Assembly: GCA_913058145.1 (NCBI GenBank)
Contig: CAJXQM010000010.1
Span: 1-64,000 of the forward strand
Length of the DNA stretch: 64,000 bases
Direction of reading: 5' to 3'
Origin: an uncultured Colwellia sp.
GTDB lineage: Bacteria; Pseudomonadota; Gammaproteobacteria; Enterobacterales; Alteromonadaceae
The notes below the pieces were generated by a model. It had not been told where the DNA came from and did not search any database. It worked only from the letters and a program-made list of their open reading frames with translations. The first letter of the stretch is position 1, and each line of letters starts with the position of its first letter. Positions 4,304 through 58,085 of the stretch are shown piece after piece. The position numbers were made by a program, and so were the translations under genes.

Positions 4304-4648
4304 TTATTCAGCGTTGGTGTCTTCTGTACTGTTTTTAGCAACTGCTTCTGTAATTAACGTTTGCAGTTCACCTTGTTGAAACATTTCGATAATAATGTCA
4401 CAACCACCTACTAATTCGCCATCAACCCAAAGTTGTGGAAAAGTTGGCCATTCAGCATATTTTGGTAATTCAGATCTAATGTCCGGATTTTGCAAAATAT
4501 CTACATAAGCAAATTGTTCATTACAATTGATTAATGCTTGTGAAGCTTGTGAAGAAAAACCACAATTTGGTAACTTTGGTGAGCCTTTCATATACAGTAA
4601 TACTGTATTTTCACTAATTTGTTCTTTAATACGTTCAATAGTATCCAT
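4304..4648 (-). CDS. grxD: Monothiol glutaredoxin 4 (Grx4)
   Basis: A 114-residue monothiol glutaredoxin with the diagnostic CGFS active site at residues 29-32 (PNCGFSSQ). The family holds [2Fe-2S] clusters with glutathione and BolA proteins and delivers or senses Fe-S clusters in the cytoplasm. The glutathione-binding WPTFPQLWVDGELVGGCDI block is intact. The C-terminal tail is slightly extended and acidic (TEDTNAE). It lies upstream of the peroxiredoxin gene and divergent from sodB, an Fe and oxidative-stress neighbourhood. Confidence 0.95.
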   Translation of the reverse strand: MDTIERIKEQISENTVLLYMKGSPKLPNCGFSSQASQALINCNEQFAYVDILQNPDIRSELPKYAEWPTFPQLWVDGELVGGCDIIIEMFQQGELQTLITEAVAKNSTEDTNAE

Positions 4649-4837
4649 AATAACCTCTAAAAAATAATATTCATTATATTAAATTGAATTCTCTCGAATA
4701 CAATTTATGGAGTCAAAAACTCACTTTTCAATTCAATATAATAAATACTTCACATTAATTACTATTTTTAAGTAAAGTACTTGAAAAATAGGACAAGAAA
4801 ACTTATAAAGTGGTAGTCTATACAGTATCAACCTAAT

Positions 4838-4858
4838 ACTTGAGTATTTTACTCAAGT
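4838..4858. promoter_or_regulatory. Inverted repeat upstream of sodB
   Basis: Perfect arms ACTTGAGTA and TACTCAAGT with a 3-base loop, about 60 bp before the sodB start codon. It may be an operator or a hairpin in the leader. No regulator can be assigned from the sequence alone. Confidence 0.4.
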
Positions 4859-8035: not shown

Positions 8036-9931
8036 CTACTTATCATGTAAAACATCATAAAGTTTTTTTGCTAGCACTTTACTAATACCAGGAACTTTTT
8101 CTAACTCAGTAATATCAGCATTTTTCACTTCTTGCATACCCCCTAAAAAAGTTAATAAGGCTTGACGCTTTTTAGCACCTATACCTTCGATATTTTCAAG
8201 TACTGATTTTTTACTGACTTTTTGTCTTTTAGCTCTATGGCCGGCTATAGCAAAACGGTGTGATTCATCACGAACATGTTGCACTAAATGTAGCGCAGGT
8301 GATGTCGCTGGTAGTGATATCAATTGGTGTGAGCCTCCTAAAATAAGTGTTTCCAACCCCGGTTTACGTGACTCCCCTTTAGCAACACCAACAAGTAAAG
8401 GGATCCTATCTAAATTTTGCTTAGCGGTTAACTCAGCAAAAAAATCTTCTGCTTTAGCTAATTGCCCTTTACCTCCATCAATAAACACAATGTCAGGTAG
8501 TTTTTTTAACGACTCCGTATCTTCTGCTTTAAGCTTGCCATAACGTTTATTTAAGGCAAAAGCCATTGCCGCATAATCATCGCCCGGTGTTATACCATGA
8601 ACATTATAACGACGATAATCCGACTTTACTGGTCCTTCTTGATTAAAAACCACGTTAGAAGCAATTGTTTGCTGCCCCATTGTGTGGCTAATATCGAAAC
8701 ACTCTATGCGATTAATGCCATTAGATAGCTCAAACACGTCATTTAAGGCAACAAAACGTGCTTGCATTGACTCTTTATGACTATTTCGAGTGACTAATGC
8801 TGTTTGCGCATTGGTTGTAGCAAGCTTTACATACTGTCTACGCTCTAAACGACTTTTAGTTGAAATTTTCACACTATGTTCAGCTTGCTTTGAAAGCAGC
8901 AAAGCCAGTTCCTTTATTTGCTCAAAATTATACTCTGTCACAATTTCCTTAGGGATATTGCCTTCGCTTATCCCTTCACCTAATGAACTTCCTAGATAAT
9001 GTTGACCAATAAAAGCTTGAATAATTTCTTTATCACTTGTTTCACTTGGCACCACAGGAAAGTAACTTTTACTGCCTAATATTTTATGATCACGAATCAT
9101 CAATAAATGAACACAGGCTTGAGCGTTAATTCGATATAAGCCAATAACATCCATTTCAGCCGCAATACCACTCACATATTGTTGCTGTTGAACTTTACGC
9201 AACGTGGTGATTTGGTCACGACATTTAGCCGCAAACTCAAAATCTAATTGATCACTAGCCAGCGCCATGCGCGTCACTAATTGCTCAATAACCATTGAGC
9301 TTTTACCTTTTAAAAATAATTTAGCTAAAGACACTTGCTGCGCGTAGTCTTTTATTGACACTTCATCTACACAAGGGGCTAAACAACGTCCTAATTGGTG
9401 TTGCAAGCAAGGACGTGACCTTGCCCTATAATAACTGTCTTCACATTGACGTATAGGGAAAATTTTTTGCAGTAAACGTAAACTTTCCCACACCGCGCCT
9501 ACGCTAGGATATGGACCAAAATAATCGCCTTTAATGCGTTTTCCGCCCCGGTGCAACCCTAGTTTAGGGTGTTTATGATCAGTAATTAATAAGTAAGGGT
9601 AGGATTTATCATCACGCAATAAAATATTGTATTTGGGCTGATATTTTTTAATGTAATTATTTTCAAGAATCAACGCCTCCCCTTCTGTATGGGTAACCGT
9701 TACATCAATAGCGCAAATTTGTTTAACCAGTGCTTGGGTTTTAACAGAGCCAACATCTTCGCGAAAATAACTGGCAAGGCGCTTTTTAAGTTGCTTTGCT
9801 TTACCCACATAAATAACCGTTTGTTCATGGTTATACATGCGATATACGCCCGATTGTTCAGTAACCGCATTTAAAAAGGCTTCATGATCAAAGTGTAAGG
9901 GTTGCTCTGTTGCATTCGTACTAGACAACAT
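8036..9931 (-). CDS. uvrC: Excinuclease ABC subunit C
   Basis: A 631-residue nuclease of the UvrABC nucleotide excision repair complex that makes both incisions around a DNA lesion. The N-terminal GIY-YIG domain (GVYRMYNHEQ to IYVGKAKQLKKRL, residues 28-50) makes the 3' cut. It is followed by a Cys-containing segment, a UVR domain that binds UvrB near residues 205-245 (DFEFAAKCRDQI), the RNase H-like endonuclease for the 5' cut, and a C-terminal double helix-hairpin-helix (LENIEGIGAKKRQALL and LEKVPGISKVLAKKL). The start codon overlaps the uvrY stop by one base, so the two are translationally coupled. Confidence 0.97.
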   Translation of the reverse strand: MLSSTNATEQPLHFDHEAFLNAVTEQSGVYRMYNHEQTVIYVGKAKQLKKRLASYFREDVGSVKTQALVKQICAIDVTVTHTEGEALILENNYIKKYQPKYNILLRDDKSYPYLLITDHKHPKLGLHRGGKRIKGDYFGPYPSVGAVWESLRLLQKIFPIRQCEDSYYRARSRPCLQHQLGRCLAPCVDEVSIKDYAQQVSLAKLFLKGKSSMVIEQLVTRMALASDQLDFEFAAKCRDQITTLRKVQQQQYVSGIAAEMDVIGLYRINAQACVHLLMIRDHKILGSKSYFPVVPSETSDKEIIQAFIGQHYLGSSLGEGISEGNIPKEIVTEYNFEQIKELALLLSKQAEHSVKISTKSRLERRQYVKLATTNAQTALVTRNSHKESMQARFVALNDVFELSNGINRIECFDISHTMGQQTIASNVVFNQEGPVKSDYRRYNVHGITPGDDYAAMAFALNKRYGKLKAEDTESLKKLPDIVFIDGGKGQLAKAEDFFAELTAKQNLDRIPLLVGVAKGESRKPGLETLILGGSHQLISLPATSPALHLVQHVRDESHRFAIAGHRAKRQKVSKKSVLENIEGIGAKKRQALLTFLGGMQEVKNADITELEKVPGISKVLAKKLYDVLHDK

Positions 9932-10575
9932 TATAACTTTTCTGTTTTTATCATACCGTGGCGAATAGCCAAATGAGTTAACTCAACATCATTACTAACG
10001 ACTAGCTTTTCAAACATACGATAACGATAACTATTAATCGTTTTAGTGCTTAGATGCAAATTCACTGATATATCAGGTACCTTTTCACCACGCGTGATCA
10101 TTAACATGATTTGAAGTTCACGATCCGACAAGCTAGTAAAAGGGTTTTCTTCGACTGATTTAAACTGACTTAGTGCCATTTGTTGGGCTATGTCCGCAGG
10201 CAAATAACGCTGACCACTATTAACCGCCCTTATCGCATTCACCATTTCATTTGGCGCTGTCCCCTTTGTTAAATAACCCGCAGCCCCTATTTGCATCACT
10301 TTGGTTGGGAATGGCTCTTCTGTATACACGGTAAGTACAATAATTTTTGCATCGGGGGTAAAACGTAATATCTTTTTAGTGGCTTCTAACCCCCCCATAC
10401 CAGGCATGTCCATATCCATTAAAATAATATCGGGTTCAGTGTGGCGACAAAACTTTATCGCTTCTTCGCCAGTTTCACATTCGTGAATAACGTTAAAGCC
10501 CTTTACTTCAGTCAATATTTTACTAATACCCGTTCGTACTAATACATGATCATCAACTAATAATATATTTATCAA
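9931..10575 (-). CDS. uvrY: Response regulator UvrY/GacA
   Basis: A 214-residue two-component response regulator. The receiver domain has the acidic pocket near residues 8-9 and the phospho-acceptor Asp54 in ILMDMDMPG. A LuxR-type helix-turn-helix covers about residues 148-200 (LSDRELQIMLMITRGEKVPDIS). Family knowledge: with the sensor BarA/GacS it activates CsrB/RsmZ-type small RNAs that sequester CsrA. A CsrB-like RNA gene with a perfect GacA-type box is present in this window at 56461-56845, a probable direct target. It is upstream of uvrC and overlaps its start by one base, as in other gammaproteobacteria. Confidence 0.95.
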   Translation of the reverse strand: MINILLVDDHVLVRTGISKILTEVKGFNVIHECETGEEAIKFCRHTEPDIILMDMDMPGMGGLEATKKILRFTPDAKIIVLTVYTEEPFPTKVMQIGAAGYLTKGTAPNEMVNAIRAVNSGQRYLPADIAQQMALSQFKSVEENPFTSLSDRELQIMLMITRGEKVPDISVNLHLSTKTINSYRYRMFEKLVVSNDVELTHLAIRHGMIKTEKL

Positions 10576-55979: not shown

Positions 55980-56232
55980 GTGCCATAATTGGGGCGAGAT
56001 TCATGGCAATGACTCTCGCTATCGTATCGTGTACCAGAATACCATTTTAATAACCGCGATATTGCTGTAACCATTCGAGCTTATTTTTGCCAAAATCTTC
56101 TATTTACTCCCAACCTTCTGCACCCGCTATGACTGCAGCGACACAAAGAAAAAGGATATCAGCTAAACTGTGTTCAACTTTCCATGCTTGTCTTCGATCT
56201 TTAATTATTGAAAGATGGTCAAACAATGTAAA
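55980..56232 (-). pseudogene. ISAs1-family transposase remnant (N-terminal domain only)
   Basis: The minus-strand frame reads [20 protein letters not shown], then [34 protein letters not shown] and, after another stop, NGILVHDTIARVIAMN. This is the start of ISAs1 transposases. Both in-frame stops are TAA where the family has Glu codons (GAA), a single G-to-T change each. There is no start codon in frame, and the catalytic DDE part is missing. It is a dead fragment next to the paa terminator. Confidence 0.78.
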
Positions 56233-56460: not shown

Positions 56461-56490
56461 AAAAAAGTGCAGCCCTAAGAGCTGCACTTT
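56461..56490 (-). terminator. Rho-independent terminator of the CsrB-like sRNA
   Basis: Read on the minus strand, AAAGTGCAGC, a 7-base loop and GCTGCACTTT are followed by a T-run. It ends the RNA gene described next. Confidence 0.9.
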
Positions 56491-56845
56491 ATAACTAGCT
56501 TATGTGCATCCTGCACTTTTATTTAGTGTTCTCATTTCGTCCATGAATACTTTCCTTAGTATATCCTTTAAATAATATTTACTTATTCTCCTTTAGCATT
56601 ACCTTGCATTGCCTTTTTCTTACTCTCATCCCTAAAAATCCTTTATATAAATTCCTTTTACAACACAAGCTGTCTCCTAGACATTGTCTTCCTGACGTCA
56701 AAATCCCTATTGACCCACATCCCTGTTCATTTCATCCTTTAGCAATATCCTAATTACTCGACTTAATCCTTAAGCCTCCTTCAAATACCTTAGTATTCCA
56801 TACTCTAGTATATTAAAGAGCTTCCTGCTCTGTGTCTTCCTGACA
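56461..56845 (-). ncRNA. CsrB/RsmZ-type sRNA (CsrA antagonist)
   Basis: The transcript is about 385 nt; E. coli CsrB is 369 nt. On the minus strand it contains 19 GGA trinucleotides, mostly as AGGA or AAGGA, and no protein-coding frame. Several GGA sit in hairpin loops: TGTC-AGGAA-GACA (56833-56845), GAGC-AGGAA-GCTC (56818-56830), AGTAT-GGA-ATACT and TGTCT-AGG-AGACA. This is the known CsrA-binding layout. The likely -10 is TAATAT (56852-56857). A strong terminator ends the RNA, and a perfect GacA/UvrY box lies about 175 bp upstream. By family, it binds and removes many copies of the translational regulator CsrA. It is inferred that UvrY, encoded at 9931-10575, activates it. Confidence 0.88.
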
Positions 56846-56851
56846 TTGTTA

Positions 56852-56857
56852 ATATTA
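56852..56857 (-). promoter_or_regulatory. Probable -10 element of the CsrB-like sRNA
   Basis: TAATAT on the minus strand, 6-7 bases before the first hairpin of the RNA, with TTTGAA or TTGAAA about 15-16 bp upstream as a possible -35. Confidence 0.5.
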
Positions 56858-57011
56858 CACTTAAAACTAAAATTTCAAATGATGCAAATCAAATATTTTA
56901 TTTATAAATAATACTTAACGAAACGAATTTTATTAATTTAAATATAATACAAGTACTTAAAAACAAAAATACAAAATCAGCTATCATTAAACGCAACATA
57001 TCTCACACTTA

Positions 57012-57029
57012 TGTAAGACATGTCTTACA
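57012..57029. promoter_or_regulatory. GacA/UvrY upstream activating box
   Basis: TGTAAGACATGTCTTACA is a perfect 18-bp palindrome that fits the published GacA consensus TGTAAG-N6-CTTACA exactly. It stands about 175 bp upstream of the sRNA start. Activating sites of csrB and rsm genes lie at similar distances. Confidence 0.85.
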
Positions 57030-57443: not shown

Positions 57444-58085
57444 TTATTTGTTACGATAATGTACCATCAAGGCACCTGATACCTTACCAACACTTACATC
57501 TTGAATAAACTCATAGTTAGCATCTTCAAAGAAAGCTCTAAACTTTCCTGAGGTAGCATAAACAGCAACACCTTCACTATCACCATGTTCTTTTAATACT
57601 GTATCAACAGCAGCCATTAAGTAATGACCTAAACCATGGTGTTGATGTAAAGGGTGTATAGCAATAAAAGACAGCATATGGAATTTCTTTAAGGGTACAG
57701 CCGCCATCACTTTTTGCTCTTTTTCTATCATCTGCTTAGTGCTAAAATATCCAGCGGTAAGTAACATTTTAAGACGCCAGTGCCAAAACCTCTCACTACC
57801 AACACTATCATCGGGGCTATTTAAACACGCAACTCCGACTAAAGTGTCAGCAAGAAATACTCCAACCATTGGTTGTTTAGCTTGCCAAAAAGCACTTAAC
57901 TCTTCTCTAATAGAGGCTCTTATCCTTTGCTCGTAACCTTCTTTTTCACTATTAAAAATATCTAAAAAAACAGGATCATCATGATAAGACTGAAATAGTA
58001 AAGAGGCCGCAAGTTTTACTTCTTCAGCACTCAAATATGTGGCCCTAATATCAAGGTTACTCTCTACGGATACAGCATCTGTCAT
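57444..58085 (-). CDS. GNAT-family N-acetyltransferase
   Basis: A 213-residue acyl-CoA-dependent acetyltransferase. The acetyl-CoA binding part is in the C-terminal half: LSFIAIHPLHQHHGLGHYLMAAVDTVLKEHG, with the Q/RxxGxG/A motif as HHGLGHYL. The acceptor is unknown. It is transcribed alone, with a long inverted repeat (58128-58175) upstream and topA further up on the same strand. Confidence 0.85.
   Translation of the reverse strand: MTDAVSVESNLDIRATYLSAEEVKLAASLLFQSYHDDPVFLDIFNSEKEGYEQRIRASIREELSAFWQAKQPMVGVFLADTLVGVACLNSPDDSVGSERFWHWRLKMLLTAGYFSTKQMIEKEQKVMAAVPLKKFHMLSFIAIHPLHQHHGLGHYLMAAVDTVLKEHGDSEGVAVYATSGKFRAFFEDANYEFIQDVSVGKVSGALMVHYRNK

Follow-up and report, generated by a model that had tools for sequence, protein, structure and literature searches.

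The minus strand at positions 56461–56846 of the window, the 64,000-nucleotide stretch of DNA analysed here, very probably (about 0.93) holds the gene of a CsrB-type CsrA-sponge RNA of Colwellia. The initial annotation had placed a CsrB-type sRNA gene with a GacA/UvrY box here, and conservation, covariation and a covariance model built only from relatives agree with it, strongly supporting a predicted CsrA-sequestering RNA with a UvrY box. The features referred to below are the following:

9931..10575, minus strand: uvrY, encoding a UvrY/SirA/GacA response regulator (NCBIfam NF007018, 378 bits, cut-off 280), with a TTG start
56107–56226, minus strand: ISAs1-type remnant (PF13808, 3.7e-12)
56461..56846, minus strand: csrB-type sRNA gene, about 386 nt with 19 GGA; start inferred, end at the T-run of the terminator
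56461..56490, minus strand: intrinsic terminator, stem 56490–56464, T-run to 56461
56462..56569, minus strand: conserved 3' module, the match of the relatives-only model R1
56504..56516, minus strand: GTGCAGGATGCAC hairpin, holding the last GGA
56852..56857, minus strand: putative -10 element TAATAT, read from the sequence, within a conserved block of alignment A2
56998..57007, minus strand: third half-site TGTGAGATAT, 4 bp downstream of the palindrome
57012..57029, minus strand: predicted UvrY/GacA box TGTAAGACATGTCTTACA, an exact palindrome TGTAAG-N6-CTTACA
57444–58085, minus strand: GNAT gene (PF00583)

As first described, the RNA gene lies between the ISAs1 remnant and the GNAT gene, a position with which the PF13808 and PF00583 matches agree, and is rich in GGA. 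The 19 motifs originally noted in about 385 nt were recovered in the 388 nt at 56461–56848 of the minus strand, where the mean over all 388-nt windows of that strand is 2.6; the runner-up minus-strand stretch has 12 and the plus-strand maximum is 11. When these 388 nt are shuffled with dinucleotides preserved, the mean is 10.9 GGA and none of 2000 shuffles reaches 19, while mononucleotide shuffles have a mean of 9.9 and a highest count of 19 (n = 2000). These means show that the stretch is also G/A-rich; the excess of GGA over its own composition is about 1.7-fold.

The fold of the minus strand has a z-score of −4.0, with equal stability in none of 100 shuffles. Counting unpaired motifs in the folded transcript, a check proposed with the initial annotation, shows that in the global fold each base of 18 of the 19 GGA is unpaired with a predicted probability above 0.5; the exception is at 56641, with 0.16 at its A, and the last GGA, in the GTGCAGGATGCAC hairpin, is borderline at 0.56–0.57. 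Local folds likewise give a mean GG unpaired probability above 0.5 for 18 of the 19. The four counted stem pairs of the GTGCAGGATGCAC hairpin are invariant in 10 orthologues and so carry no covariation evidence. The Rho-independent terminator is where it was first placed, and its stem cells are 95.8% paired in the same 10 orthologues. The stretch was also correctly said to have no protein gene: the longest ORFs overlapping it (of at least 40 aa) are 40, 49 and 51 aa. Features expected of the CsrB class are numerous GGA motifs that predicted folds leave largely unpaired or place in hairpin loops, a Rho-independent terminator without a protein gene and a UvrY/GacA palindrome far upstream; all of these are present here.

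The palindrome TGTAAGACATGTCTTACA occurs exactly once in the window, and the 3.0-Mb assembly has no other exact copy. Near-matches to the box alone mean little, because the pattern with one mismatch occurs at four places in the assembly and a reversed control pattern at three. The inferred start, near 56846, is about 174 bp downstream of the centre of the palindrome, in line with the distance of about 175 bp given earlier. The third half-site follows a consensus, YGTRRGAYAT, which is found without mismatch in 47 of 50 units of the genus and with one mismatch in the other three, on the same alignment from which it was derived; at random places it occurs without mismatch in 0 of 3000. It is a shared feature rather than a new one, since E. 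coli csrB has a similar, partially conserved element, TGTAGGAGA, 5 bp downstream of its repeat (PMC4682653).

The search for conserved copies suggested at the outset finds a DNA match in all 39 genomes of the genus, this one included, with a best E per genome of at most 2e-7; the weakest of these matches cover short segments, the box region for example. When GGA clusters were collected from the fetched genus loci with the box not required, 54 were obtained, of which 27 have an exact box, 44 have one with at most one mismatch and 50 one with at most two; a box within one mismatch is also present in 78 of 2000 intervals drawn at random from these loci. Two of the four clusters without a box are weak (8 GGA) and two are on contig-edge pieces. 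The 50 box-plus-GGA units come from 37 of the 39 genomes, 24 with one unit and 13 with two; in the remaining two genomes, G001 and G052, the matching pieces are at contig ends. A 5' motif was found in 46 of the 50 units, and the distance from the start of the box to the inferred RNA start is 181–186 nt in 42 of these 46 and 175, 175, 199 and 202 nt in the other four, among units chosen by requiring a box with at most two mismatches.

Alignment A3, of 10 orthologues, gives a structure of 58 pairs in 11 helices with 97.9% of cells paired, compared with 31–42% for slid versions of it. Since A3 also served to predict the structure, this count, before which 10 of 68 predicted pairs (a long-range helix and one weak helix) were left out, is biased in its favour. 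Both partners are changed in 12 pairs (mean of shuffles 6.4, with 1 of 500 as high), and the covariation score is 0.227 against 0.152, with 0 of 500 shuffles as high. Of the GGA columns, 20 are retained in seven or more of the ten orthologues.

Searching the whole window with Rfam at gathering cut-offs returns four tRNAs and nothing else. On the stretch itself, with relaxed settings, the CsrB model RF00018 scores 18.5 bits (E 0.0072), below its gathering cut-off of 71 bits. Under stricter filters, which lose weak matches, the model is above cut-off in none of 25 Colwellia genomes, this one among them, and has a match at E 0.001 in three of the 25, while passing the cut-off in 5 of 16 genomes from other families of the order. 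The miss therefore looks like a limit of the model, and Csr regulation may be missing from annotations of the genus as a consequence. Seven named sister loci have no Rfam match at gathering cut-offs, and relaxed settings on three of them yield a single RF00018 match of 18.2 bits (E 0.45). Other sub-threshold Rfam matches (Atu_C9, L20_leader and others) fall mostly on the terminator hairpin and were judged to be chance.

A covariance model of the 3' module, R1, was trained on 31 of the other 45 complete units, with this genome excluded; it has only 14 pairs and is thus mostly a sequence profile. It matches the window at 56462–56569 of the minus strand with 117 bits (E 2.8e-23), the runner-up in the window being a match that overlaps the same terminator on the opposite strand (28.7 bits). 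The covariance search originally called for is thus negative at the Rfam cut-off and positive with the relatives-only model, and this match to a model built without the genome in question identifies a Colwellia-type csrB with the shared 3' module. Among 46 further loci, of which at least L108 and L110 are on contigs of training genomes, strong R1 matches occur in records named Colwellia, Cognaticolwellia and Thalassotalea. At E 0.01, R1 finds only a 28.4-bit match (in L097) in 16 loci of other families (L005–L011 and L093–L101), and it does not detect the box-plus-GGA units of Aliiglaciecola/Paraglaciecola (L156–L158).

Shine-Dalgarno-like GGA can be common ahead of genes, and on that ground the stretch might be a small-protein gene or an mRNA leader instead of a sponge RNA. 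We regard this as very unlikely: its ORFs of at least 40 aa reach no more than 51 aa, complete orthologous units vary from 312 to 1186 nt with alignment gaps that are not multiples of three, the stretch has its own terminator, and the ORF list has only the IS remnant and short ORFs in the 2 kb that follow on the strand. That the locus is a GGA-rich spacer arisen by chance is a negligible prospect; the G/A-rich composition and the mononucleotide shuffles that peak at 19 speak for it, but the dinucleotide shuffles never reach that count, and chance would not be expected to leave a conserved box at a conserved spacing, covariation and a match to the relatives-only model. A CsrB-type sponge RNA remains our reading of the locus.

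The RNA belongs to a known kind, to which a genus-wide Colwellia CsrB group is added. It resembles E. coli CsrB (of the RF00018 family) in its repeated GGA, far-upstream UvrY palindrome, extra half-site and terminator. E. coli CsrB has 22 GGA (PMC11882849), and the centre of its UvrY palindrome is at −183/−182 (PMC4682653), compared with about −174 here. The sequence, however, lies far below the cut-off of that CsrB/RsmB family (18.5 against 71 bits). CsrB1 and CsrB2 of Shewanella oneidensis are also similar, being about 420 nt long with AGGA motifs and a TGTAAGN6CTTACA box, and are UvrY-dependent there; unlike here, where no barA was found, BarA is present in that organism (PMC3171408). Of the Csr sRNAs described in related marine bacteria, the closest found are Pf1, Pf2 and Pf3 of Pseudoalteromonas fuliginea (PMC11882849, PMC9927453), which have 25, 21 and 9 GGA, are intergenic and have terminators. 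According to the same sources, Pf1 acts on glycogen in E. coli and Pf3 has a database match in Thalassotalea sp. LPB0316; the word Colwellia is absent from the main texts of both. The Colwellia units share their 3' module, and are set beside the Pf sRNAs by description. A description of a Colwellia csrB was not found in the part of the open-licence literature that was examined. A study that reportedly predicted CsrB genes from GGA motifs and a GacA box may have listed Colwellia.

The UvrY gene said to lie about 46 kb away in the window is indeed there, at 9931–10575 of the minus strand; its TTG start is common to three aligned relatives. Its translation has D54, T82 and K104, the latter two of which we take to be conserved receiver residues. 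D54 is the phosphorylation site (PMC4682653). Decay of the protein was considered and is unsupported: of 133 positions that do not vary in 29 other orthologues, it differs at one (H84Y), and the other UvrYs of the 30 have 0 to 3 such changes each. At E 1e-60, UvrY was not found in relative G022, and only 132 residues were matched in G009. One CsrA is encoded in the genome (equivalog match), so that both uvrY and csrA are present. The N-terminal domain of CsrD, PF17157, is found in none of the 39 genus genomes; its absence here therefore says nothing special, and turnover of CsrB in the genus may differ from that in E. coli, or the domain may have diverged.

BarA was sought by its Pfam sensor domain, by the NCBIfam BarA model and by the neighbourhood of its gene. 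The sensor domain PF09984 is present in 37 of the 39 genus genomes (seven named genomes with the same result are seven of those 37) and absent only here and in the fragmented G001. In relative G017, the gene order is relA-rlmD-barA-...-pdxJ-recO, with a barA of 1177 bits. In the present genome (L183, contig C47), rlmD and pdxJ are on one contig with a junction of about 300 bp between them at 4551–4854 and no barA; the flanks, C47:4854–10630 and C47:602–4551, are collinear with G017, which has 3.2 kb with barA in between. The junction contains a 30-codon stretch weakly like the start of a transposase (HTH_Tnp_1, E 0.038, below cut-off; MerR 0.17). Elsewhere in the genome, the best stretch found with the BarA model scores 246.5 bits (whole protein 310.6, best family TorS), as opposed to 1177 for G017. 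The best kinase match (L170) fits TorS best, though below TorS's cut-off, and the ORF of the second (L171) looks by eye like a TPR-type hybrid kinase. The BarA-UvrY-CsrB-CsrA circuit put forward in the initial annotation is thus not supported: uvrY and csrA are present, but in this draft assembly (68 contigs, 97.0% complete) the contig that carries both of the usual flanking genes has no barA between them.

The rlmD-pdxJ junction most likely marks a real deletion, and barA has probably been truly lost from this genome. The gap could instead be an assembly error, or barA could be in the missing part of the genome, leaving the full circuit intact, as the draft state of the assembly and the presence of the sensor domain in 37 of 39 genomes of the genus would allow. 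This appears improbable given that both collinear flanks are on a single contig with about 300 bp between them instead of 3.2 kb, that the junction holds the weak transposase-like stretch, and that the best other BarA-model stretch falls so far short of the G017 score. If barA is lost, its apparent natural deletion beside an intact uvrY-csrB-csrA set offers a test, outside the laboratory, of whether UvrY can act independently of its kinase.

By analogy with the known family, phosphorylated UvrY would bind the far-upstream palindrome and half-site, transcription of csrB would run to its terminator, and the RNA, with its roughly 20 GGA sites, would bind CsrA and remove it from its mRNAs. With barA apparently lost, UvrY would need another phosphate donor (a non-cognate kinase or acetyl phosphate); otherwise csrB would be expressed at a low basal level. 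In E. coli, barA disruption abolished UvrY binding in vivo (PMC4682653), and in Shewanella csrB is down more than 100-fold without barA (PMC3171408), so that csrB may be nearly silent here. In vitro, acetyl phosphate did not phosphorylate Shewanella UvrY (PMC3171408). In one E. coli study, csrB of cells lacking barA is switched on by acetate via acetyl phosphate (PMC8639471). We tentatively consider a rewired Csr switch, in which barA was lost (perhaps linked to an IS), UvrY and csrB were kept and are driven by acetyl phosphate, and the sponge reads acetyl-CoA/acetate flow, for example, as part of the same tentative proposal, from the phenylacetate breakdown encoded next door. The locus might alternatively be decaying, csrB no longer being switched on after loss of the kinase and drifting, as its dependence on barA in E. 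coli (PMC4682653) and Shewanella (PMC3171408) would suggest. Branch comparison of this genome with its sister G041, with G017 as outgroup (p values uncorrected, numbers small), lends some weight to this: the promoter region has 27 changes here and 11 in the sister (p 0.014; 13 unassignable), and UvrY has some excess of amino-acid changes (6 against 1, 4 unassignable, for 24 against 22 nt; 6 nonsynonymous and 12 synonymous codon changes against 1 and 19, p 0.038). The faster promoter region and UvrY protein could reflect relaxed constraint; the GNAT control, however, also changes faster on this branch (34 nt here and 20 in the sister, 10 and 6 amino acids; 8 nonsynonymous and 16 synonymous codon changes compared with 3 and 14, p 0.31). 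Decay is nevertheless unlikely, as the transcript itself is no faster than that of the sister (25 against 22 changes, p 0.77), the box is exact, the half-site and terminator are intact and the 19 GGA are kept, although the loss may be too recent to tell.

The initial annotation had also placed the RNA next to a large catabolic island. As a position this holds, in that on the side of csrB opposite to GNAT there are phenylacetate-type genes (PaaA/PaaC, PaaX, Aldedh-MaoC, thiolase and AMP-ligase), with a FadJ-like gene between them and csrB; the sRNA, however, is found across the genus, and nothing observed here ties it to the island. A location next to GNAT is widespread. Among 59 named loci fetched via GNAT, at least seven of which are genus genomes already counted, judging by identical places, 33 have a box-plus-GGA unit, which in 25 of them starts at most 1 kb downstream of GNAT. 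The 26 loci without a unit at the threshold used include some truncated ones and that of Ca. Colwellia aromaticivorans (L102), whose csrB is on another contig. A record titled Endozoicomonas sp. G2_1 (L123) has a Colwelliaceae-like GNAT and csrB unit, and its title may be wrong. Comparison with a plasmid collection gave no match.

The 46 complete units of the genus have RNAs of 312–1186 nt with 15–68 GGA, placing the window's RNA (386 nt, 19 GGA) at the small end of the range. The largest are those of G002 (1029 nt, 53 GGA; L083 4665–5693) and G019 (1186 nt, 68 GGA; L088 4551–5736), in which a 147-nt internal tandem repeat is present in 3.3 and 4.4 copies, respectively. The range of 15–68 GGA among relatives offers a natural series on how sponge capacity evolves. 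In the genomes with two units (13 of 39; e.g., L066, L072 and L073), both are in one fetched stretch in 8 of the 13, and paired units are often of about 530 and 650 nt.
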